From assembly GCA_017626395.1 (NCBI GenBank), contig JAGAIU010000014.1, positions 1 through 64,000 of the forward strand: 64,000 bases of DNA, written 5' to 3'. Positions 28,593-63,580 of this stretch are shown one piece after another (position 1 is the stretch's first letter; every line of letters begins with the position of its first letter). This stretch comes from Clostridia bacterium (GTDB lineage Bacteria; Bacillota; Clostridia; TANB77; CAG-465). The notes under the pieces are model-generated. The model ran no database searches. It was not told the origin of the DNA and saw nothing but the letters and a program-made list of their open reading frames with translations. Both the position numbers and the translations under genes were made by a program.

Positions 28593-31500
28593 ATGAAAAA
28601 GAAATTAATTTTACTTTTTATTATAATGTATATATTAGTAAATAGATTTAATTATGCAAATGCAGCAACTTTAGTCACGAGTGGAATAAGATATGTAAAT
28701 GCAACTTTATATGATATAAATACGGTAGAATATAATAGATACGCAAGAAATATGGATTATGGTTCGTATATTAGTATGTCGGAAAGTGCAAGAGCTAATT
28801 TAGATAAAAAATTAACCTTACAAAAAACTGGATCAGACAATCCAGTACATGGATGGGCACATAGGGATTTTTCTACTAACTATAATTCAACTTACTGTGC
28901 ATTGCAAGGATTAGTTCAAAAAAAATTAGTAAATGATAATATAGTATTAACTTATCAGAATAATAATGGTATATCATTATTTCCATCTGATTCAGTATTA
29001 TCTAGATATCCATCAGTATATCCAATAGTGTATAAAAATTATAAATTTCCTTTTTATAAAAATAGTAGTGGATATTATGAATTTGATAGTTCTACACATC
29101 TTGTAAGTGTAGATACAGCAAGTAAAAAATTTAATTTATATAGAGGAAATAATACAGGATTTACAGGATTTTTTCCGTTTAATAAATATACAGATAATTT
29201 ATCATCAGACTCAGCTAGGAATTATAACTTTACTGCAAGAATAGACATTCCTTTTTATATGAATGCAAATGGAACAGTAAGAAATAGCAATGGTACAACT
29301 AGTGACATGGTCTTTTCATTTAGAGGAGACGATGATGTTTGGGTATTTATAGATGATACATTAGTGTTAGATATCGGTGGATGTCATGGAGCTGTAAGTG
29401 GTAGTATAAACTTTAGAACTAAAGTAGCAACTGTAAGTCAGGGAGCTATAGCTAATGCGAGTGGTGATGGAATAGGAGCTATAAGATATCCATCAACAAC
29501 TAATTTTAATATTAGTGAAGGAAAACATACAATTAAAATTTTCTATTGTGAAAGAGCAACAGGAGAGTCAAACTTTAAGGCTACATTTAACGTTATAGAG
29601 TCTGGACTTATACAAAAGTATATAGATATACATACCGGTGAAGAATTAGGTAGTGCAGGAATATATGGTTCAGCAGGTGATATTGTAAATACGTCAGCTA
29701 AAAGTTTTACAGGTTATACTTTAGTTCAAAAACCATCTACCGAAACTTATACTTTGAATGAGCAAGAACAAATAGTTAGATATTATTATGCTAAAAATTC
29801 ACAATTGACTGTTAAATATATAGATGAAAATTCAGGTGCAGAAATAGTTCCAGGTAGTACAGGAACATATAGGCAAGGGGATTCATATACAACAGATAAA
29901 AAAGAATTTTCGGGATATACTTTTACTAGAGACACTGGAAATACTTTTGGAACTTTTGGAAGAGAAAATATTAATGTTGTATATTATTACAAAAAGAATA
30001 GTGCAGGGGTAATAACTAAATATCTAGATCAAGTAACAGGAGAAGAAATAGCAGAACGTGAAATACAAAAAGGTCTTGAAAATGACGATTATATAACAAC
30101 TGCTAAAAATATAAATGACTATACATTGGTAGCTACTCCTATGAATTCAATGGGACAAATGAAAATAGAAGAAACAATAGTAGTGTATGAATATAGAAAA
30201 GTTGCTGATGTAATAACAAGTTATATAGATGAAAATACAAATGAGGATATTACTAGTAAAATAATTAAAACATATAAAGAGGGGGATACATATTCAACTG
30301 AAAAAAAAGATTTTGAAAACTATAAATTTATACATGATACAGGAAATTTATCTGGAACCATAGCAAGAGAGAATATCGAAGTTGCATACTATTACAAAAA
30401 AAATAGTGCTGGTATTATAGTTAGACATATAGATCAAGTAACAGGTGATGAAATTGCAACAAGTGAAACTAAAACAGGACTAGAAGGAGATGAATATACA
30501 ACCACATCAAAAGATATAGATGGATACCAATTAGTTTTAATACCAAATAATGCATCAGGTAAAATGGCAGTACAACAAATAACAATAATATATGAATATA
30601 GGAAAAAATCAGAGGTAATAACTAGATATGTAGATGAAAATACTGGATTAGAGATAACAGATAGTATAATTCAGACTTTAAAAGAAGGTGATAGTTATAC
30701 AACAGAGAAAAAAGAATTCTCAAGTTATAGTTTTACAAGAGATACAGGAAATACATCTGGGACTATAGCACGAGAAAATATAGAAGTTATATATTATTAT
30801 AAAAAGAATAGTGCAGGTGTAGTAACTAAGTACATAGATCAAGTAACGAGAGAAGAAATAGCAGATTTAAAAATACAAACGGGACTTGAAAATGATACTT
30901 ATACTACTGAATCAAAAGATATAATAGATTATGAATTAGTGTTAGTACCAGAACATTCAACTGGAAAAATGACGGTAGAACAAATAACTGTGGTATATGA
31001 GTATAGAAAACTTGCCAATGTAATAACCAAACATATAGATGCAAATACAGGTGATGAGATAATACCAGAGGTAATAAAAAAATATCGCGAAGGAGATGAA
31101 TACGAAGTATTTGCTCAAAATTTAGAAGGATATACACTAGTAGAAGAACCAGAAATAAAAAGTGGAATAGTAGGAAGAGAAGATATAACAAAAGTCTTTA
31201 AATATAAGAAGATATCAGCAGGATTAGTGGTAAAATATGTAGATGAATTTTCTAATGAGCAATTATATCAAAGAGTTTATACAGGAAATGAAAAAGATGT
31301 AATTACTTTAGAAGAATTAACTTTTGGGGGATATGTATTATCTAAAAGACCAACTGAAACAGAAGTTGAACTTGCAGTAGAACCACAAGAGAAAATTTTC
31401 TATTATAAAAAAATAGTATACCTAGAAGTTGTAGGAAGAGACAAATTAACGAGTAAAGAATTATATGCATGGCTACAAGAAGGAATAGAAGGAGAAGAGT

Positions 31501-32318
31501 ATATAACAGAGTCTACAAATGTTCCAGGATATGATATGGTAGAAGAACCAGAAAATAAAAATGGTATATATAAAAGAGAAAATGATAAAGTAATATATTT
31601 ATATAGTAAGATTGCAGGTAAAATAACAGTAAAATATATAGATAAAGATACAAATGAGTTGCTGGATAGTTATGAAATTACAGGATATGTAAGTGATGAA
31701 TATACTACAGATAAAAAAGAATTTGAAAAATATAATTTTATAGAAATTGTGGGAAATCCAAATGGGAGTTTAGAAGAAAGTGAAAAGGAAATAATATATT
31801 ACTATGAAAAAAAGCGAGGAAATGTCATAGTAATTTATGAAGATACAGAAGGAAATGTATTATTTGAAGATAAATTAAATGGTAAAGTAGATGAGCCATT
31901 TAAAATTGAAGAAAGAGAAATACCACTTTATAGAATTATAAAAAGGCCAGAAAGTACAGAAGGAATATTTATAGAAGGAACTATAGAATTAAAATATATT
32001 TTAGAAAAAATAAAAGGAAAAATAACAGTAAACTTTATTGATAGGCAGGGAAACATTATTTATGAAAGTGTTACTAAAGATGGCTATTTAGATGAACAGT
32101 TTTATTTAAAAGCAAATGAGAAAGAAGGATATCAAATTATTGAAAATCAAGAAATAAGTATATATTTTGTTGAAGGTGAAACAGTTATAGATGTAGTTTA
32201 TGAAAAAATGCAAGAACCACCGGCAACAGGAGATATAAATGTTATACTTTTAACTATTATTATGATAATATCTATATTAGGAATTACTTATGCAATAATT
32301 AGAAAAAGACGCAAATAA
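28593..32318 (+). CDS. Giant fibro-slime/MucBP surface protein with PPATG sorting signal
   Basis: A 1241-residue secreted protein. Residues 1-27 are a signal peptide. The N-terminal region (about 28-335) contains a fibro-slime (PA14-related) domain recognisable by FSFRGDDDVWVFIDDTLVLD and IGGCHGAVSGSI (about 245-275). This is followed by 13 MucBP repeats of about 67 residues. The C-terminus has PPATG (1209-1213), a membrane helix and the tail RKRRK, a sorting signal with Pro in place of Leu. It is probably an adhesin for mucin or other glycans; the ligand is inferred from MucBP family knowledge. GAGGTG precedes the ATG, and it is transcribed alone. Confidence 0.88.
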   Translation: MKKKLILLFIIMYILVNRFNYANAATLVTSGIRYVNATLYDINTVEYNRYARNMDYGSYISMSESARANLDKKLTLQKTGSDNPVHGWAHRDFSTNYNSTYCALQGLVQKKLVNDNIVLTYQNNNGISLFPSDSVLSRYPSVYPIVYKNYKFPFYKNSSGYYEFDSSTHLVSVDTASKKFNLYRGNNTGFTGFFPFNKYTDNLSSDSARNYNFTARIDIPFYMNANGTVRNSNGTTSDMVFSFRGDDDVWVFIDDTLVLDIGGCHGAVSGSINFRTKVATVSQGAIANASGDGIGAIRYPSTTNFNISEGKHTIKIFYCERATGESNFKATFNVIESGLIQKYIDIHTGEELGSAGIYGSAGDIVNTSAKSFTGYTLVQKPSTETYTLNEQEQIVRYYYAKNSQLTVKYIDENSGAEIVPGSTGTYRQGDSYTTDKKEFSGYTFTRDTGNTFGTFGRENINVVYYYKKNSAGVITKYLDQVTGEEIAEREIQKGLENDDYITTAKNINDYTLVATPMNSMGQMKIEETIVVYEYRKVADVITSYIDENTNEDITSKIIKTYKEGDTYSTEKKDFENYKFIHDTGNLSGTIARENIEVAYYYKKNSAGIIVRHIDQVTGDEIATSETKTGLEGDEYTTTSKDIDGYQLVLIPNNASGKMAVQQITIIYEYRKKSEVITRYVDENTGLEITDSIIQTLKEGDSYTTEKKEFSSYSFTRDTGNTSGTIARENIEVIYYYKKNSAGVVTKYIDQVTREEIADLKIQTGLENDTYTTESKDIIDYELVLVPEHSTGKMTVEQITVVYEYRKLANVITKHIDANTGDEIIPEVIKKYREGDEYEVFAQNLEGYTLVEEPEIKSGIVGREDITKVFKYKKISAGLVVKYVDEFSNEQLYQRVYTGNEKDVITLEELTFGGYVLSKRPTETEVELAVEPQEKIFYYKKIVYLEVVGRDKLTSKELYAWLQEGIEGEEYITESTNVPGYDMVEEPENKNGIYKRENDKVIYLYSKIAGKITVKYIDKDTNELLDSYEITGYVSDEYTTDKKEFEKYNFIEIVGNPNGSLEESEKEIIYYYEKKRGNVIVIYEDTEGNVLFEDKLNGKVDEPFKIEEREIPLYRIIKRPESTEGIFIEGTIELKYILEKIKGKITVNFIDRQGNIIYESVTKDGYLDEQFYLKANEKEGYQIIENQEISIYFVEGETVIDVVYEKMQEPPATGDINVILLTIIMIISILGITYAIIRKRRK
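29601..32207 (+). repeat. Thirteen MucBP repeats, partly in a two-unit super-repeat
   Basis: Units of about 201 bases each encode the pattern KYIDxxTGEEI - EGDxYTTxKKxFxxY - xYYYKK. Units 2, 4 and 6 (ending YYYKKNSAG) alternate with units 3, 5 and 7 (DQVTGxEIA, ending VYEYRK), so units 2-7 are three copies of a roughly 134-residue pair. Units 8-13 are more diverged and single. Confidence 0.85.
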
Positions 32319-41096: not shown

Positions 41097-41498
41097 ATGG
41101 GAGAGAAATATTATAACTTACCTATGGTAAGAGAAAGTTTTGTTGCCAGAAATATTAAAAAAATCTTTCAAAGTTTTTTCAATATAAAAAGGAAAAAAAG
41201 AGATCAAAAAAGAGCACAAATACTTGCACAAAGAGCAAAGAAAAATCGTACTTTTAGTGATACAGTAACATTAGGAGCAACTCGTCAAAAAGTAGATATT
41301 TATGAATTCCAAAATATGTATAAAAGAGGAGAAATAAAAATCGAAGATATGAACGAGGACCAAAAATATGCTCTTATCAAACTATTTGAAATGCAAAATG
41401 AAAGATTAAAAGAAAGTATTCAAGAACATAAAAGAAATACAGAAGCATACAATATGGAAGTTCAAAGATTAAAGAAAGAATTAGATATTATAGGATAA
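41097..41498 (+). CDS. Basic coiled-coil protein of unknown function
   Basis: A 133-residue soluble protein. Residues about 18-50 are strongly basic (NIKRKKRDQKRAQILAQRAK), which suggests contact with RNA or DNA. Residues about 85-131 form a likely coiled coil (ALIKLFEMQNERLKESIQEH). No known family is recognised. It is co-transcribed with the HD protein, which may be its partner. GGAGG precedes the ATG. Confidence 0.6.
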   Translation: MGEKYYNLPMVRESFVARNIKKIFQSFFNIKRKKRDQKRAQILAQRAKKNRTFSDTVTLGATRQKVDIYEFQNMYKRGEIKIEDMNEDQKYALIKLFEMQNERLKESIQEHKRNTEAYNMEVQRLKKELDIIG

Positions 41499-47493: not shown

Positions 47494-47637
47494 ATGAAAG
47501 AAGAATTATTTATGGATTTTTCAAAACTAACACAAGAAGAAATCGAAAAAGCAAAAGAGGCTAAAAAAGCAAGTGAATATACTATAGAGGATTTTGTTAA
47601 TGATATGAACGATGATGGAAAAAATAGTGAGGTGTAA
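47494..47637 (+). CDS. Microprotein A of the scaffold locus
   Basis: A 47-residue acidic protein, too short for usual gene finders, with a strong AGGGAGGAT ribosome site. Its core MDFSKLTQEEIEKA (about 7-20) and KKASEYTIEDFV (about 24-35) closely match microprotein B at 50950 (DFSELTQEDIDRA, KKVNEYDIMDLL). The conservation between two copies in one locus is good evidence that it is translated. It lies 3 bp before the 1021-residue gene, whose ribosome site GAGGTG overlaps its end. No transmembrane segment; probably a short helical interaction peptide. Function unknown. Confidence 0.7.
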   Translation: MKEELFMDFSKLTQEEIEKAKEAKKASEYTIEDFVNDMNDDGKNSEV

Positions 47638-47640
47638 AAA

Positions 47641-50600
47641 ATGACAAAACAAGAAACAGCAATGAAAAAGTTCTTTACTGTTGCAGCAGATAAAAAAATA
47701 AGTGATCAAGTAAAAGAAGAATTATTAAACGAATCATTAGTTGAATTTGTAAATGCTACTCTAAAAAAAGATCCTAGATATAAAGAACAAGAAGCAAGAC
47801 TAACTAGTATACAAACTCAAGAAGGAATTAATAGATATGAAATAAGTGTCGATGATTTATTTTCTATGGATATTAATTATGACAACTTTTTAAAATCAAA
47901 AAATACACCAGATAAATTTCAAGATTGTTTTGAATTCTTTTTGGATGTAAATGATAGTATTTTAAGATCTTCTAAAGAAAAGAATTATGAGAATTTTATT
48001 CCAACAACTAAAGAAGATGAGATAACTATATATTCTAATTATGCTAAAGAAAAACTATTAGATCAGGAAGAAAGCTTATATAAAGATTCTGCAGAGGAAG
48101 CTACTTTACTTACTCTTGCTCAAACATCTAGAGTAATAACAGATTTAAGTACAAGACAATATGATGAAAGTGTTAAAGAGGCATCAAGAGATAAAGTATT
48201 TGGTAGAGCAAGAAATTTAATTGAAAGTATTGCTGCTGTGGACGATATAGCTTTAGAAAAAGATAAACCTAAAGATGTAGAAATAGTTTTAGATAATGAA
48301 GGAAAGCCGGAAAGCATAAATATAAATTATATAGATCAATTAGTAGCAGCTGAACCTGAATTGTTAGATAGATATAAAGTTTTAAGAAATGAATACAATG
48401 CTGATGGTACAAGAAAAGAGCTAGATGAGATAATTCAAACAAGGGATAATTTAATTCAATCAGTTCAAGAAAATCAAAATATTAATGAAACTACAAGAAA
48501 AAATATAACAAATCAATTAAATACTGCTTTTGCAAATATTGTAAGAGATGAACTTGTTTCAAAAGGAAGTATAGAAAATCTTGCAGAACTAAGAACTATT
48601 GTTGGTGATGAAAAATTAATTGAAGAAATCGAAAGAGTAGCTGAACATACAGAAGCTCCTTTAGAATTATCGCAAGATGAAAACAATAAAGCTATTAAAT
48701 ATTTTAATGACCATATTGAAAATGTAACTTATGGTCTAAGTGATCAAGCAACAAAAGACTTGGTAGATTTAATGGATTTAGTTGAAAAAAGAAGAAATAA
48801 ATCTAAAGAAAATCAAGTAATGAATACTGAACAAAGAGAAGTATTAAAACAAGAGATTCTTGAACAATTAAAACAAGAACTAATACAAGATAAAAAAGAG
48901 CCAGCAACTCAAGAGGAAAAGGATAATGCTATTAAACAAAGAGATACTAAAAGAAGATCATTCTTAGTATTTATCAAAGACAAGTTAACAAATAATAAAT
49001 ATAATGAAAAAGAAGAACAAGAGCAAGAAGAACCAGATGAAAACGAACCGGAATTACCAGATCCTAAACCATATTCTGTAGTTGAACCAGTTGAAGAAGA
49101 AGAAAAAGAAGTTAAAAAGAAAGTAAAAAAAGAGAAAAATAAAACAAAAACAACTGAGAAAGAACGTGGCGAAGATGGAACTGATGGTCGTGAGGGTGAG
49201 AACGGAAATAACGGACGTGATGGCGAAAATGGTACTAGTGGTAGAGATGGTGCCGATGGAGAAAATGGTAGAGATGGTGAAAACGGAAGAGACGGAGAAA
49301 ATGGACACGATGGAAAAGATGGAGTTTCTCCAGAAAGAGATGAAGAAACAGATAAGAAAATAGATGATACTAACAAAGAAATAGATGATTTGAAAAATAA
49401 AATAGACGAACTATCACAAACTATCAATGATATGAATAGTAAGCCAAATCTTGATACAAGTATTCTTATTGGTATAGAACAATTAAAATCATTATATAAA
49501 CAAATTCTTGAGAAAAATGATAATGGAGAGATCTCAAGATTGCAAAAAATGATTGAAGATTTAAATGGTAAGATAGAAGAAATGCAAAATAAAGAAGTTC
49601 CATCAAAAGATGAACCAATATTACCAAAAGACAATATTGAAGAACCAGTAAAAGAAGAAGACGAGCCATTAATTGTAGAACCAACAACTGTATTACAACC
49701 GGAAGCTACTATACCAGAGGAAGATGAACCGATACTACCAGACGAAAATGTAGAAGAGCCAGTTACAAATACAACAGAATCATTAAAAGAGGAGGACGAA
49801 CCATTAATTTTAGAGCCAACAACTGTACCACAACCGGAAGCTACTATACCAGAGGAAGATGAACCAATACTACCAGATGAAAATGCAGAGGAACATGGTG
49901 TAGATACAACAGAGCCGGTAAAAGAAGAGGACGAGCCATTAATCGTAGAGCCAACAGTTGAGCAACAATCAGAAACTACTATACCAGAGGAAGATGAACC
50001 AATACTTCCAGATGAAAATACAGAGGAACCTGGTGTAGATACAACAGAGCCGGTAAAAGAAGAGGACGAGCCATTAATCGTAGAGTCAACAGTTGAGCAA
50101 CAATCAGAAACTACTATACCAGAAGAAGATGAACCAATACTACCAGATGAAAATGCAGAAGAACCAGCTCAAGATACAGAGCCAGTAAAAGAAGAAGACG
50201 AACTGCTAGTTGGAGAAAATAAAGCTCCTGTTAATGTGGAAATAGAAGAACTTAGAAAATCTAAGGATGCATTAATAGCTGGAATTAGACAGAAAAATGA
50301 AGAAGAAATAAAAGAATATGAAAATAATCTACAACAAAGAGCAGATGAAATAATAGATAAGCTTGATCCATCAAAAATTACTTTAGATGAATTATATAAA
50401 GCTAGAGAACATTTAGAAAAAAGAATAGCTCAAGATGTTGCTGCTAAAAGACAACAAAAAGAAGAGTCTTTAAAAATGATTCAAGAAACTATGGAAAAAT
50501 ATATAACAAGAAAAGAGTTAGCAGATAAACTAAATGAATTAAATAAAGTAAAAGAAGAATTAAAAACAAAACAAGATTTAATTAACTCTATTGAAACTGA

Positions 50601-50706
50601 AACTGCTAAATCTTTAAAAGCTGTTGAAGATGAAATTGAGTCAGTAAAAGATGAAATTAAAAAGAATACTGTTACTAAGGAGGATGGAGTAATTGGAACA
50701 ATATAA
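47641..50706 (+). CDS. 1021-residue cytoplasmic scaffold-like protein with collagen-like and acidic repeats
   Basis: I do not recognise a family. No signal peptide, membrane helix or sorting signal is present, so it should be cytoplasmic. Residues about 1-430 are helical and charged. A Glu/Lys-rich linker follows (about 455-508), then 18 uninterrupted G-x-y triplets without proline (about 510-563) and a coiled coil (about 568-602). Five acidic repeats of about 45 residues come next (about 657-858), and a long C-terminal coiled coil (about 865-1010). This modular layout suggests a structural or tethering role. Microprotein A is 3 bp upstream, and the next gene overlaps its end by 14 bp. Confidence 0.75.
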   Translation: MTKQETAMKKFFTVAADKKISDQVKEELLNESLVEFVNATLKKDPRYKEQEARLTSIQTQEGINRYEISVDDLFSMDINYDNFLKSKNTPDKFQDCFEFFLDVNDSILRSSKEKNYENFIPTTKEDEITIYSNYAKEKLLDQEESLYKDSAEEATLLTLAQTSRVITDLSTRQYDESVKEASRDKVFGRARNLIESIAAVDDIALEKDKPKDVEIVLDNEGKPESININYIDQLVAAEPELLDRYKVLRNEYNADGTRKELDEIIQTRDNLIQSVQENQNINETTRKNITNQLNTAFANIVRDELVSKGSIENLAELRTIVGDEKLIEEIERVAEHTEAPLELSQDENNKAIKYFNDHIENVTYGLSDQATKDLVDLMDLVEKRRNKSKENQVMNTEQREVLKQEILEQLKQELIQDKKEPATQEEKDNAIKQRDTKRRSFLVFIKDKLTNNKYNEKEEQEQEEPDENEPELPDPKPYSVVEPVEEEEKEVKKKVKKEKNKTKTTEKERGEDGTDGREGENGNNGRDGENGTSGRDGADGENGRDGENGRDGENGHDGKDGVSPERDEETDKKIDDTNKEIDDLKNKIDELSQTINDMNSKPNLDTSILIGIEQLKSLYKQILEKNDNGEISRLQKMIEDLNGKIEEMQNKEVPSKDEPILPKDNIEEPVKEEDEPLIVEPTTVLQPEATIPEEDEPILPDENVEEPVTNTTESLKEEDEPLILEPTTVPQPEATIPEEDEPILPDENAEEHGVDTTEPVKEEDEPLIVEPTVEQQSETTIPEEDEPILPDENTEEPGVDTTEPVKEEDEPLIVESTVEQQSETTIPEEDEPILPDENAEEPAQDTEPVKEEDELLVGENKAPVNVEIEELRKSKDALIAGIRQKNEEEIKEYENNLQQRADEIIDKLDPSKITLDELYKAREHLEKRIAQDVAAKRQQKEESLKMIQETMEKYITRKELADKLNELNKVKEELKTKQDLINSIETETAKSLKAVEDEIESVKDEIKKNTVTKEDGVIGTI
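49168..49329 (+). repeat. Proline-free collagen-like G-x-y tract
   Basis: Eighteen consecutive triplets starting with Gly (GED, GTD, GRE, GEN, GNN, GRD, GEN and so on), rich in GEN and GRD. Charged and Asn residues fill x and y, and proline is absent. Bacterial triple helices can use charge pairs in place of hydroxyproline. Confidence 0.85.
49609..50214 (+). repeat. Tandem acidic repeats, about 45 residues each
   Basis: Five units (first and last partial) with the core PEEDEPILPDEN-EEP and VKEEDEPLIVEPT. Units 3 and 4 are almost identical at DNA level, indicating recent duplication. Confidence 0.85.
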
Positions 50707-50935
50707 AGTAAAAGAATTTAATAGAATAGATGAGTTAAGACTAGCTCTTGAAAATAATAGCATAACTGTAGATAGCATATCAGATAATGACGTTCCTTTA
50801 GTAACTGCACTTCTTCAATATGAAATAATGAAGACTAAAGAAAAAGTTGAACAAGCTAGTGAAAAGATTAATGATTACAAAAAGAGAATGATTGAAGCTA
50901 TAGAATATTTAAAGAATAAAAATACTTCAAATTAA
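50693..50935 (+). CDS. Small coiled-coil protein coupled to the scaffold gene
   Basis: An 80-residue protein starting with TTG, supported by AAGGAGG at 50677-50683, nine bases upstream. Its first 14 bases overlap the end of the scaffold gene, so translation is probably coupled. The N-terminal half is acidic with FNRIDELRLALENNSI; residues about 40-75 form a likely coiled coil (KTKEKVEQASEKINDYKKR). No known family. Confidence 0.7.
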   Translation: MEQYKVKEFNRIDELRLALENNSITVDSISDNDVPLVTALLQYEIMKTKEKVEQASEKINDYKKRMIEAIEYLKNKNTSN

Positions 50936-50949
50936 AGAGGTGGAAAAAA

Positions 50950-51090
50950 ATGGATGAAAAAAAATTACCTTTAGATTTTTCTGAATTAACTCAAGAAGAT
51001 ATTGACAGGGCAGACAGTTATAAAAAAGTAAATGAATATGACATAATGGACTTACTAAAAGCAATTGTCGATAGTTCTGAAGAAGAGTAG
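50950..51090 (+). CDS. Microprotein B, paralogue of microprotein A
   Basis: A 46-residue acidic protein with AGAGGTGG upstream. It shares the DFS-LTQE-I--A and K--EY-I-D pattern with microprotein A 3.3 kb upstream. It starts 14 bp after the coiled-coil gene and is the last gene of the predicted four-gene operon. There is no membrane helix. The shared motif may be a common docking peptide for the scaffold protein; this is inference. Confidence 0.7.
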   Translation: MDEKKLPLDFSELTQEDIDRADSYKKVNEYDIMDLLKAIVDSSEEE

Positions 51091-51153: not shown

Positions 51154-51216
51154 TTGACAAATCAGAATACGCCGTGTATAATATGTGTAAAGTTTTAAAG
51201 CTTTACACATTTTTTA
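51154..51216 (+). promoter_or_regulatory. SRP operon promoter nested in a terminator-like hairpin
   Basis: TTGACA (51154-51159), 17 nt, TATAAT (51177-51182) is a perfect consensus promoter. Directly after it ATGTGTAAAG (51183-51192) pairs perfectly with CTTTACACAT (51201-51210), followed by six Ts. Transcripts from upstream would contain both arms and terminate. Transcripts starting at about 51189 would lose most of the left arm and continue into ylxM. Confidence 0.75.
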
Positions 51217-59017: not shown

Positions 59018-59045
59018 AAGCAATCAGATGTTGGTTGCTTTTTTT
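59018..59045 (+). terminator. Intrinsic terminator before the adhesin gene
   Basis: AAAGCAATCA pairs with TGGTTGCTTT, with one G-U, followed by Ts. The next start codon is only 23 bases further, so an upstream promoter would have to read through. Confidence 0.7.
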
Positions 59046-59067
59046 GATGAAAGGAAATGATAAAATT

Positions 59068-62000
59068 ATGAATAAAAAAAGAATATTAAGTATGTTCTTG
59101 TTGGCTTTTACTTTATTTGGCGTATTTAATTTTATTACTCCTACAAAAGTAGAGGCTGCAACAAATGGAACTTTATCACATCCTAAAACACCAAATGTTT
59201 ATTACACAAGACGAGGTGGTGGAAAGGATTATATGTCAGCACAGTATGAGCAATATACAATGAATGGGAAAGTAGTTTATTGTATAGAGCCGGGTGTTGA
59301 TATAACTACTACCTCATATTTAGGGTATGATGGATTACAGGCATCACCCTATGATGAGGCAACAAATAAAAAAATAGAATTGATAGGTCACTATGGATAT
59401 GATTATCCGGGTCATCAAACTTTAAGATATAGAATGGCTACACAAGCGTTAATATGGGAAACAACAGGAGGTCAAATTGTAGAATTCTGGACAGAACAAT
59501 ATGGTTATGGTGATTATATCAATATCAATGCAGAAAAAAATGAAATAATGAGATTAGTAAATGCTCATTATAATAAGCCAAGTTTTAATGGAAGTTCAAT
59601 GGAAGTTATAATTGGTAAAGAATATAAAATAACAGATAATAATGGTTTAATGAGTGAATATGAATTATATTCAGCAGATAATCTTAATGTTAGAATTGAA
59701 GGAAATAATATCTATGTAACACCATTAGCAACAGGTAATTTAACTTTAAATGTTGTAAGAAAACATTATGATAATCATACAACTATTGTTTATCACGGAA
59801 ATGATGGAAAATCACAAAAAATGGGATTTTTTAGATTTTCAGACCCTGTTGTAGCGTCTGTAAAATTAAATGTTTTAGGTGGTAAAATACAAGTTAAGAA
59901 AGTAGATTCAGAAACAAATTCTACAACACCACAAGGTGCTGCAACATTAGTTGGTGCAAAATATAATGTAATCAATTCAAATGGTAATGTAGTATCTACT
60001 TTAACTATTGGCGAAGATATGACAGCAATTACAGATAACTTGCCATTAGGAACATATACTATAAAAGAAGTGTCTGCACCAACAGGATATGAACTAGATA
60101 AAACTACTTATACTGTGACAGTTAATTCAAGTGATACAGTTAATATAACAGTTAAAGATAATGTTATAAAAGGAAAAATTAAAGTAGTAAAATATGATAG
60201 TGAAAATAATTCTTGTAAAGCACAAGGACAAGCAACTTTAAAAGGTGCTAAATACGAAATACGAGATAAAAACAACAATGTTGTTGATACAATAACTATT
60301 GGTGATGATTGTAGTGCTACAAGTAAGTATCTTCCTTATGGAAAATATACAATAAAAGAAATATCAGCACCAACAGGTTATTATTTAGATTCAAACACTT
60401 ATACAGTAGATATAAAAAATAGTGATACAGTGTCAGTAACTTCAAAAGATGAGGTTATAAAAGGTAGAATTAAAGTTGTTAAAAACGATAGTGAAAATAA
60501 TTCTTGTAAAGCACAAGGACAAGCAACTTTGAAAGGTGCAAAGTTTAATATATTAGACCATAATAACAATGTTGTTGATACAATAACAACGGGTGATGAT
60601 TGTACTGCAACAAGTAAATATCTTCCTTATGGTAAGTACACTATAAAAGAAGTGTCTGCACCAAAGGGTTATTATCTATCAACTGATACGAAAGAACAAT
60701 TTATTGGTGAAAAGAAAGATTACTCTGTGACAGTAAAGAATGAAGTTATTAAAAACTTTATTAGTATTTTAAAACAATACGATTACGTTAATGGAAATAC
60801 TACTTTCTTAAATGCAGAGGCAAATATCACATTTGAAATATTCTATCCAGATGGAACAAAATATGGTGAAATCAAAACTGATAAAAATGGTTATGCAACT
60901 ATTGAGATTCCTTATGGAGTATGGAAATTTCATCAAGTAAACAGCAACACAGGATTTGAAAAAATCTATGACTTCTTTATTACTGTTGATGAAGTAAGTG
61001 AGAAAGAACAATATTATAATATTTTAAATAATAAAATATCTGCATATCTTCAAGTATTTAAGAAAGATAGTGAAACAGGTAAAACAATAGCAATAGCAAA
61101 TACTAAATTTAAAATATTAAACACTGATACTAATCAATATATAAGTCAATATGTAGGTGGTAAAGTATATGATAATTTCTTAACAGATGAAAATGGTACT
61201 TTTACAACTTATTTAAAATTAGAGGCAGGTAATTATAAGTTAGTAGAAATTGAAAGTCCAAAAGGTTATTTGCTATCAAAAGATGGATTAAAATTTACTA
61301 TTGGCGAAGATACTGAATATAATTACACAACTTATGGTGCTATTGTAGTAGTAGAGTTTAAGAATACTCCAATAAAAGGACAAGTTGAGATATTTAAAAA
61401 TGGTGAAAAGTTTGTAGCAGAAGATGGAACTTTTAAATATCAAGACATTAAATTATCTGGTATTAAATTTAATATATATGCTGAACAAGATATTAAATCA
61501 GCAGATGGTAATTATTTATATTACAATAAAGGCGATTTAGTAGAAACACTTACAACTAATGAAGATGGATATATTAAGAGTAAAAAACTTCCACTAGGTA
61601 AATACTATCTAGTTGAAGTAGAAACAAAAGAAAATTTTGTTCTAAATACAGAAGAATATCATTTTGAACTAACTGAAAAAGATAATAAAACTGCTATTGT
61701 ATTAGATACTTACAAAGCATTTAATTATTTGAAAAAAGGAACATTAGAGTTTACTAAAAAAGATTATTCTACAAGCGATCCTATTCCTAACGTAGAGTTC
61801 AAAATATTTACTGAAAAAGACGAATTGATTTATTCTGATAAAACTGATGAGAATGGCAAAATCGTTATTAAAGAATTAGCAGTAGGTAAATATTATATTG
61901 TTGAAGAAAATCCTATTGAGGGTTATGTATCTTCTGATGAAAAGGTATTATTTGAAATAAAAGAAAATGGCGAAATAGTTAAGGCTGAAATGACTAACAA

Positions 62001-62940
62001 AAAAATAACATCAACATTGAAAGTCACAAAAAATGATGAAGATGAAACATTATTATCTGGTATTAAGTTTGGTGTTTACAATTTAGAAGATAAACTAATA
62101 AGTGAACACACAACAGATGAAAATGGTTATTTTGAAGTTGTTTTAGAATATGGTAAATACTATTTCAAAGAGATATCTACACTAGATTCTTATGTTTTAA
62201 ATGATGAGAAAGTTCATTTTGAGGTTAAAGAAGAAGGTGCAGTAATTGAAAAAACAATGACAAATAAATTTAAGACGGGAACATTAGAGTTTACTAAAAC
62301 TGATTTAGTAAATGGTGAAGTTATACCAAATACACTAATTGAAGTTTATAATTCAAAAGATGAACTTGTTTTCTCTGGTAAAACTGATGAGAATGGAAAA
62401 GTTGTCATTGAAGAATTGAGATATGGTAAATACTATATCATTGAGAAAGAGGCTGCAACAGGTTTTGTAATAACAGATGAAAAGGTATTATTTGAAATAA
62501 AAGAAAATGGCGAAATAGTTAAGGCTGAAATGAAAAATAGACCTATCTATGGAATATTAGAATTTACAAAAACTGATATATCAACAAGTGAGCCACTTCC
62601 TAATACAGTTATAGAAATATATACTGAAAATGATGAACTTGTTTTCTCTGGTAAAACTGATGAGAATGGAAAAGTTGTCATTGAAGAATTGAGATATGGT
62701 AAATACTATATTTTAGAAAAGGAAGCACCAGAAGGATATATTTTAACAGAAGAAAAAATGGCATTTGAGATATTAGAAGATGGCGAAATAGTTAAGGCAA
62801 CTATGGTAAACGAAAAAGTAGTAGTTGAAGTTCCTAACACCGGATTAAATGATTATTTTGTATTAGAAATAATATCTGGATTACTAATATTAAGTGGAAT
62901 AGGAGTGATAATTTATGCTAAAAAGAAAAACAAAAAATAA
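59068..62940 (+). CDS. Thioester-domain SpaA-repeat adhesin with VPNTG sorting signal
   Basis: A 1290-residue secreted wall protein. The signal peptide (1-31) ends near VEAA. A thioester domain (about 40-200) has the Cys in VVYCIEPGVD (residue 72) and the Gln in ATQALIWE (residue 126), which form an internal thioester able to bond covalently to host or partner molecules. A beta module (about 180-280) is followed by ten SpaA/Cna_B domains (about 282-1250), each opening with a K-V-K-x-D-like strand and ending GKYYIxE-APxGY. VPNTG (1255-1259), a helix and KKKNKK complete the sorting signal. The upstream ATG at 59035 is not a good start. The sortase gene overlaps its end. Confidence 0.9.
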   Translation: MNKKRILSMFLLAFTLFGVFNFITPTKVEAATNGTLSHPKTPNVYYTRRGGGKDYMSAQYEQYTMNGKVVYCIEPGVDITTTSYLGYDGLQASPYDEATNKKIELIGHYGYDYPGHQTLRYRMATQALIWETTGGQIVEFWTEQYGYGDYININAEKNEIMRLVNAHYNKPSFNGSSMEVIIGKEYKITDNNGLMSEYELYSADNLNVRIEGNNIYVTPLATGNLTLNVVRKHYDNHTTIVYHGNDGKSQKMGFFRFSDPVVASVKLNVLGGKIQVKKVDSETNSTTPQGAATLVGAKYNVINSNGNVVSTLTIGEDMTAITDNLPLGTYTIKEVSAPTGYELDKTTYTVTVNSSDTVNITVKDNVIKGKIKVVKYDSENNSCKAQGQATLKGAKYEIRDKNNNVVDTITIGDDCSATSKYLPYGKYTIKEISAPTGYYLDSNTYTVDIKNSDTVSVTSKDEVIKGRIKVVKNDSENNSCKAQGQATLKGAKFNILDHNNNVVDTITTGDDCTATSKYLPYGKYTIKEVSAPKGYYLSTDTKEQFIGEKKDYSVTVKNEVIKNFISILKQYDYVNGNTTFLNAEANITFEIFYPDGTKYGEIKTDKNGYATIEIPYGVWKFHQVNSNTGFEKIYDFFITVDEVSEKEQYYNILNNKISAYLQVFKKDSETGKTIAIANTKFKILNTDTNQYISQYVGGKVYDNFLTDENGTFTTYLKLEAGNYKLVEIESPKGYLLSKDGLKFTIGEDTEYNYTTYGAIVVVEFKNTPIKGQVEIFKNGEKFVAEDGTFKYQDIKLSGIKFNIYAEQDIKSADGNYLYYNKGDLVETLTTNEDGYIKSKKLPLGKYYLVEVETKENFVLNTEEYHFELTEKDNKTAIVLDTYKAFNYLKKGTLEFTKKDYSTSDPIPNVEFKIFTEKDELIYSDKTDENGKIVIKELAVGKYYIVEENPIEGYVSSDEKVLFEIKENGEIVKAEMTNKKITSTLKVTKNDEDETLLSGIKFGVYNLEDKLISEHTTDENGYFEVVLEYGKYYFKEISTLDSYVLNDEKVHFEVKEEGAVIEKTMTNKFKTGTLEFTKTDLVNGEVIPNTLIEVYNSKDELVFSGKTDENGKVVIEELRYGKYYIIEKEAATGFVITDEKVLFEIKENGEIVKAEMKNRPIYGILEFTKTDISTSEPLPNTVIEIYTENDELVFSGKTDENGKVVIEELRYGKYYILEKEAPEGYILTEEKMAFEILEDGEIVKATMVNEKVVVEVPNTGLNDYFVLEIISGLLILSGIGVIIYAKKKNKK
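62359..62711 (+). repeat. Identical 80-bp DNA blocks in the last adhesin repeats
   Basis: Bases 62359-62438 and 62632-62711 are identical. Two further blocks are identical between repeats: 61936-61993 with 62476-62533 (58 bp) and 60196-60239 with 60487-60530 (44 bp). Confidence 0.85.
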
Positions 62941-63580
62941 TAATGGAAGAAAGGGTCAACTTTTAATAGTTGGCTCTTTTCTTATAATTATTGGCATTGG
63001 AATTTTAGGAGGAAAATTAGTAAATAATTATTTAGATAAAAAACAAGAACAGGACTTAATAAATAATTTTTATGAGCAACAAGAAGAATATGTTGTAGAT
63101 GTTCCAGTTATGGAAGAAGAATTAGTAAAGGAAGAAGTTGTAGAACAAGAAGAAAAGAAAGAAACAACAACTCCTACTATAAACTATATTGCAGTTATTA
63201 AAATACCTAAAATTGGTTTAGAAAAAGGATTAGCAAGTAAAGGCAGTTATTGGAATAATGTAAATAGAAATATTGAGATATTATCTGAATCTGATATGCC
63301 AGATGTAGAGAATGGAAATGTTATATTAGCAGGACACAGTGGTAATAGTGGCGTTTCATATTTTAGAAAACTTAATAAACTACAAAATGATGATACTGTA
63401 AGTATTGTATATAACGGAAAAGAATATAAATACAAAATGGTTAATTCTTATGAAATAGAAAAGAATGGTTATGCTCATATAGTTAGAAATGCAGAAAAAA
63501 GCACTTTAACTTTAATTACTTGTAAGCATAACACTAATAAACAAATAGTAGTTATTTGTGAATTAATAGAAGTTATATAG
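62915..63580 (+). CDS. Sortase of the element
   Basis: A 221-residue transpeptidase expected to anchor the upstream VPNTG protein. One membrane helix (about 15-38) is followed by an acidic linker (about 45-85) and the sortase barrel (about 88-221). The catalytic His is in NVILAGHSGNSG (about 129-140) and the Cys in LTLITCKHNTNKQIVV (about 194). The Arg normally found before the last strand is replaced by K-Q here. The start overlaps the adhesin by 26 bp, with GGAG about 12 bases upstream. Confidence 0.88.
   Translation: MLKRKTKNNNGRKGQLLIVGSFLIIIGIGILGGKLVNNYLDKKQEQDLINNFYEQQEEYVVDVPVMEEELVKEEVVEQEEKKETTTPTINYIAVIKIPKIGLEKGLASKGSYWNNVNRNIEILSESDMPDVENGNVILAGHSGNSGVSYFRKLNKLQNDDTVSIVYNGKEYKYKMVNSYEIEKNGYAHIVRNAEKSTLTLITCKHNTNKQIVVICELIEVI

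Follow-up and report, generated by a model that had tools for sequence, protein, structure and literature searches.

What kind of system is formed by a 1021-residue protein, two microproteins and a small coiled-coil protein encoded by four consecutive genes? The question is raised by contig JAGAIU010000014.1 of a Clostridia bacterium (order TANB77, GenBank assembly GCA_017626395.1), of which we analyzed positions 1 to 64,000, called the window here; it sits in a 2.0-Mb metagenome-assembled genome (MAG). All four open reading frames (ORFs) were confirmed at 47494-51090, each preceded by a Shine-Dalgarno-like sequence, and they are as tightly spaced or overlapping as a preliminary description of the locus had reported, with a 3-nt gap and a 14-nt overlap (Table 1). 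The same description found no signal peptide or membrane helix, and indeed no segment of the four proteins is hydrophobic enough for either (highest 19-residue Kyte-Doolittle mean, 0.81). It saw in the large protein a collagen-like cytoplasmic scaffold, perhaps near the translation or secretion machinery. Our results point instead to a cytosolic module built on a dead zincin, which would serve as a noncatalytic partner or regulator of live zincins, with the coil protein and the microproteins as binding partners. We give this reading a probability of about one half.

When the N-terminal 440 residues of the large protein were used as the query, relatives were found within the genus alone, at 22 to 28% identity. 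About half of the aligned relatives carry an HExxH motif, together with a second block, NYxxxxxExDAR. The nine proteins of the window type form one profile, which matches the live HExxH family over 313 columns (hhalign probability of 99.4%, E of 1e-21), and a profile of the live copies matches the window protein at E of 2.8e-23. These profile comparisons show homology between the first ~330 residues and an HExxH metallopeptidase family specific to this lineage. HExxH is found in 0 of the nine window-type proteins in the alignment; at its columns the window protein reads FFLDVNDSILRS, and the zinc ligands of a functional zincin motif are missing. Because the metal-binding histidines are gone, we read the window protein as a pseudo-zincin, the alignment placing the loss of the metal ligands in this protein and in its nine syntenic relatives.

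In seven HExxH relatives with identity down to 20%, H112, E113, H116, N162, Y163, E169, D171, A172, and R173 are invariant, and the H, E, H, and Q and the N, Y, E, and A are still invariant when 12 members drawn from several of the order's families are compared, with T-x2-H-E-x2-H-x2-Q ... N-Y-x5-E-x2-A as the family signature. Structure models were made for the window proteins and three loci, from shallow underlying alignments. The model of a live member, with a predicted local distance difference test score (pLDDT) of 71, has a helix, three strands, the HExxH helix, and a later helix with the Glu, the core order described for zincin-like peptidases (PMC5512222). Its best matches to solved structures include many zincins, with Z scores of 4 to 6. 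Foldseek by itself found nothing significant among PDB or viral models, and a search of the PDB sequences with the live-zincin profile gave one marginal match, to an unrelated enzyme. The homology is to the new HExxH family, which is placed among the known zincins on the basis of motif and model: because the motif, its invariance, and the model agree when taken together, zincin is the best assignment for the family, the fold matches alone being below the level of proof.

Live copies occur across the order, in 28 of 287 genomes and 9 of 45 genera in a profile search. In the class beyond the order there are essentially none, as 2 of 391 genomes matched, one being the window's own and the other giving a partial match. 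A genome-collection scan with three close members matched three MAGs and no others, and no relatives of the family were found in the collections of phages, plasmids, and viral contigs searched. The live zincins have no Pfam or NCBIfam match. The family is previously undescribed and unnamed in the protein-family libraries searched; its kind, a zincin with a dead paralogue, is already known. One genome of the order (G281; loci L080, L081, L097, L098, and L100) shows an unusual expansion, with seven zincin-profile matches spread over different contigs. In a different family of the order, a helical protein of ~150 aa (AYxEVxEIL...KIPxKLxxLF) adjoins zincin genes, often upstream (L078, L079, L080, L082, L091, L092, and L094).

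Phylogenetic analysis places eight of the nine dead copies in one group (94/89), beside the live copies of genomes G007, G012, and G019 (95/90). A dead copy is present in 10 of the 28 genomes of the genus, all ten of which also have a live one. That of the window's genome (G000:C21:61957-63519, HHEVWHKLQH) is preceded by an ORF of 72 to 76 aa and followed by a 63-aa coil gene. Since these genomes are close relatives, we take the co-occurrence as suggestive of a functional pair and not as proof. Tandem arrangements are found beside the gene for the CCA-adding enzyme, in the order small-live-coil-small-dead-coil in G012 and small (in frame)-live-coil-dead-coil in G007 and G019. The window has A-dead-coil-B, G004 has ...large-coil-small-ylxM, and the murD-ylxM site of G003 is empty, with no module. 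Nine dead copies keep long open frames, a coupled coil gene, and a common site; other modules of the genus lie in unrelated neighborhoods, for example, beside genes read as mutS, recA, and arginine biosynthesis. The ancestor would have been a live zincin encoded next to murD or the CCA-adding enzyme; after its tandem duplication, the downstream copy would have become noncatalytic and acquired a long tail that changes fast. At L018 (3788-6370), the pseudo-zincin of G005 has an in-frame stop, reflecting either a decayed copy or an assembly error.

The coil gene is the most constant companion of the family, lying 3' of the family gene in 25 of 25 cases genus-wide, live and dead alike. In the window, it overlaps the large gene and is probably translationally coupled to it. 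The coil family is found in 78 of the 287 genomes of the order and is thus wider than the zincins; as it also follows several unrelated large proteins, we describe the coil as a general small partner, loosely SHOCT-like. The window coil has no SHOCT (PF09851) match over the cutoff, the best of 12 coils reaching E of 0.0052, and the PDB sequences gave only marginal helical proteins with the coil profile. Elsewhere in the window (41097-41498), a 133-aa protein encoded after an HD-domain-like gene has a basic amphipathic N-terminal helix and a C-terminal coil of the coil family, and similar proteins across the order often have an FFxKIKxFFKxIF-like N-terminal helix. Large proteins of 586 to 754 aa, without HExxH and each followed by a coil gene, were seen at L129 (4165-6174, G000:C61), L183, L186, L188, L189, and L190; many genes of this second coil-partner group stand beside a DnaJ-like or P-type-ATPase-like gene.

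Microproteins A and B had been called paralogous, and they align with a score of 86, compared with 26.8 ± 5.2 for shuffled sequences; because 0 of 5000 shuffles scored as high, the likeness is not due to chance. A profile of their sequence type (type i) has A and B as its sole strong matches in the window's genome, and type-i homologues stand before other family genes in G012 (two), G007, and G019, which bears out the proposal that the microproteins belong with the large gene. Type-i orthologues differ by 0.13 to 0.22 at nonsynonymous sites (dN) and 0.59 to 1.23 at synonymous sites (dS); by this measure they are under purifying selection. Of 15 live copies, 13 have a small ORF directly upstream, whereas only 4 of the 9 dead copies that could be scored do. 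There are at least four sequence types of small ORF, following the zincin groups, three of them separated by alignment score; the fourth is the GKGFFGK type, of 72 to 100 aa. The type EQxxEYL...DEIIEEV occurs in this genus (G016 and G026), and another family of the order has more weakly similar sequences.

The order A-large-coil-B, however, did not turn out to be a conserved one. The recurring unit is small ORF-large-coil, and a B-like ORF after the coil is found elsewhere in G004 alone. B scores z of ~11 to 13 against the microproteins of live copies and A scores ~1 to 4; as B is the nearer of the two, we read it as probably the surviving partner of a live tandem unit that was deleted, although, judging from the G004 case, an ORF at this position may have its own use. 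Large genes without a microprotein, which had been named as a case that would count against a system, do exist at the syntenic loci of G014, G010, and G005, which goes part of the way toward that refutation. In G007 and G019, the last part of the CCA-adding enzyme and the small ORF share a reading frame, and the small ORF has its own ATG and a GAGGAG. At L022 (10895-12298) and L023 (3725-5095), from two MAGs, the CCA-adding frame runs without a stop into the microprotein, as a fusion or a nested gene.

According to the pseudo-zincin reading, the dead copy would be a binding partner of the live zincins of the same cell, as a regulator, substrate holder, or scaffold. The coil would be made in step with the large protein and bound to it, and the microproteins would be short helical ligands of the zincin fold. 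Because they stand before dead copies too, they cannot act by active-site blocking alone. Several observations weigh against this reading. Binding among these proteins is a proposal, the data showing homology, loss of the metal ligands, co-location, and constraint on the microprotein orthologues, and the co-occurrence of live and dead copies may reflect shared descent alone. Five of the nine scorable dead copies have no small upstream ORF of their own. The coil is not specific to the zincin family, because it also lies 3' of several unrelated non-zincin large proteins, including a 586-aa protein in the same genome. One dead copy, G016_dead2, is placed apart from the others in the tree and has a very long branch. 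All fold matches of the live domain have Z scores below 8, a range where chance arrangements are common, and the predicted model of the window domain alone (pLDDT of 51) is too poor for a structure search.

A wider version of this proposal is held more tentatively, as possible but somewhat doubtful. It would see here a metallopeptidase system, previously undescribed and specific to the order, with a co-translated coil adaptor and dedicated peptide ligands of ~45 aa that are common to live zincins and dead paralogues; the ligands would come in the group-following types described above, so that the microproteins would specifically regulate a protease/pseudoprotease pair or serve as its docking tags.

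We consider it unlikely that the locus is a toxin-antitoxin-like or phage defense module, with a live zincin effector restrained by the acidic upstream protein, the coil as sensor or adaptor, and the dead copy as decoy or immunity component. Such a module would fit the position of the small acidic ORF, immediately before the enzyme gene and either overlapping or almost abutting it, as well as the fast divergence, the patchy presence (11 of 28 genomes of the genus), and the several copies at different loci. Yet there is no PADLOC match, the loci lie among housekeeping genes in stable synteny, phages and plasmids gave no match, and the microprotein is kept beside dead copies and, in two genomes, in frame with the CCA-adding enzyme.

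Distinctly unlikely, too, is an exported or surface effector system in which the small helical proteins would act as chaperones for large proteins that are exported along an unconventional path. Small helical partners do flank a large, modular, fast-changing protein whose nearest NCBIfam matches are surface adhesins, and collagen repeats are mostly found in surface proteins. However, signal peptides and membrane helices are lacking, the tail is collagen-like in some members only, and type VII EssC exceeds the family cutoff in 0 of the 28 genomes. On this last count a type VII (Esx/LXG) substrate cluster was rejected. Elsewhere in the window, large surface proteins with repeat domains, pilin- or adhesin-like, are encoded at 54-2588, 28593-32318, and 59035-63580, one of them followed by a sortase-like gene (judged by eye).

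That the genes are simply decaying or neutral lineage-specific sequences, the dead copy being on its way out and the microproteins nonfunctional frames, seems improbable. Divergence is very fast (20 to 25% identity within the genus) and the G005 copy is broken by its stop, but the dead copies retain their long frames, coil gene, and site, dN of the microprotein orthologues is well below dS, and A and B keep matching residues.

The link to the signal recognition particle (SRP) and translation, proposed in the preliminary description, is not supported. A scaffold near that machinery might be suspected, as the module adjoins ylxM-ffh and the G012, G007, and G019 copies adjoin the gene of a tRNA enzyme. 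It is highly improbable, however, as a perfect promoter and a leader belong to ylxM-ffh itself and are present also in G003, which lacks the module, and the other modules of the genus have unrelated neighbors. In the window leader (51154-51210), a hairpin, GTGTAAAGT..AGCTTTACACAT, with a T run follows right after the promoter, at the expected 5' end of the mRNA, and a close equivalent of promoter and hairpin is kept in every relative examined, with or without the module; about 30 relatives have the leader in similar form. The SRP link fails because of this promoter and the empty G003 site, and the adjacency of module and SRP genes is positional.

There is next to no chance that the large gene is a phage tail fiber remnant: PHROG tail fiber profiles match the window protein at E of 1e-11, but the best of them all span the low-complexity stretch of Gly-x-x and charged residues, the neighborhood has no phage genes, PHROGs give at most marginal matches to the live members, which are not matched in phage genomes, and the collections searched hold no phage relative of the N-terminal domain.

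Table 1. Features of the module and its 3' boundary in the window
Feature	Position	Strand	Basis or remark
Microprotein A, 47 aa, acidic (DFSxLTQExIE ... EYxIxDF)	47494..47637	+	Stop 3 nt upstream of large gene; alignment with B, profile relatives
Large protein, 1021-aa pseudo-zincin with long tail	47641..50706	+	Alignment, profile-profile comparison, tree
Zincin-homologous domain, residues 5-332	47653..48636	+	HExxH columns are FFLDVNDSILRS; profile-profile alignment
Basic segment NAIKQRDTKRRSFLVFIKDKLTNN joining domain and tail, residues 429-452	48925..48996	+	Candidate membrane- or acid-binding helix; weak, control proteins score alike
Collagen-like Gly-x-x stretch, 18 triplets, residues 510-563	49168..49329	+	Pfam Collagen, 34.6 bits versus cutoff of 27.2
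Acidic 45-residue repeat (EEDEPLIVEP... PEEDEPILPDENAEEP), 4.2 tandem copies of 135 nt	49641..50201	+	Repeat analysis
Coil partner, 80 aa, TTG start	50693..50935	+	Coil hidden Markov model; 14-nt overlap with large gene
Microprotein B, 46 aa	50950..51090	+	Nearest are microproteins of live zincins, G012 and G007
Promoter of ylxM-ffh, TTGACA-17-TATAAT, 12/12, own	51154..51182	+	3' limit of module

Beyond the domain, the large protein is less constant. Calling it collagen-like was correct as far as the Gly-x-x triplets go, which pass the Pfam cutoff, but its main feature is the decayed zincin domain; the collagen-like stretch and the acidic repeats are a variable tail, and among the aligned relatives the former is found elsewhere only in G010. 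Searches of the large proteins and their partners against Pfam, NCBIfam, PHROGs, and PADLOC gave collagen, low-complexity, or marginal matches only. Because the controls score alike, we do not claim an amphipathic or membrane helix in the large protein.

This work adds, from uncultured Clostridia, a zincin family unnamed in the libraries searched, and a clear example of an enzyme that died within a single genus, with tandem live/dead pairs. It also corrects the attractive but wrong reading of an SRP-linked collagen scaffold. If the microproteins do bind the zincin fold, the module would be a compact natural test of how a short peptide and a dead paralogue control a cytosolic protease.

Several known systems resemble parts of it. 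The 18-triplet stretch recalls bacterial collagen-like proteins of the Scl/Lcl type, but the window protein has no signal peptide or membrane anchor, and its triplets form a variable insert within a pseudoenzyme. As in SHOCT (PF09851, PMC3581485), the coil has a short helix-turn-helix pattern (x-G-x-I-xx-x-D) at its start and is paired with many unrelated large proteins; unlike SHOCT, it is a separate gene of 60 to 90 aa with a long second helix, and only 1 of 12 coils reaches E of 0.005. In enzyme-prozyme pairs such as AdoMetDC and its prozyme (PMC5201418), a dead paralogue is likewise retained alongside the live copy, here sometimes in tandem, although the enzyme class differs and regulation of the live copy is what we infer in the present case. 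A parallel in domain terms is the polyvalent-protein metallopeptidase (Iyer et al. 2017, PMC5512222), which shares the core order predicted for the live relatives and the placement of an enzyme domain in a large modular protein. Polyvalent proteins are encoded by phages or conjugative elements, whereas the zincin family described here, with no match in phages, plasmids, or viral contigs, is chromosomal and lies in stable housekeeping synteny. It has its own signature, HExxHxxQ ... NYx5ExxA, outside the Pfam and NCBIfam families, and it comes with a fixed coil partner, upstream microproteins, and, in the window, a dead copy.

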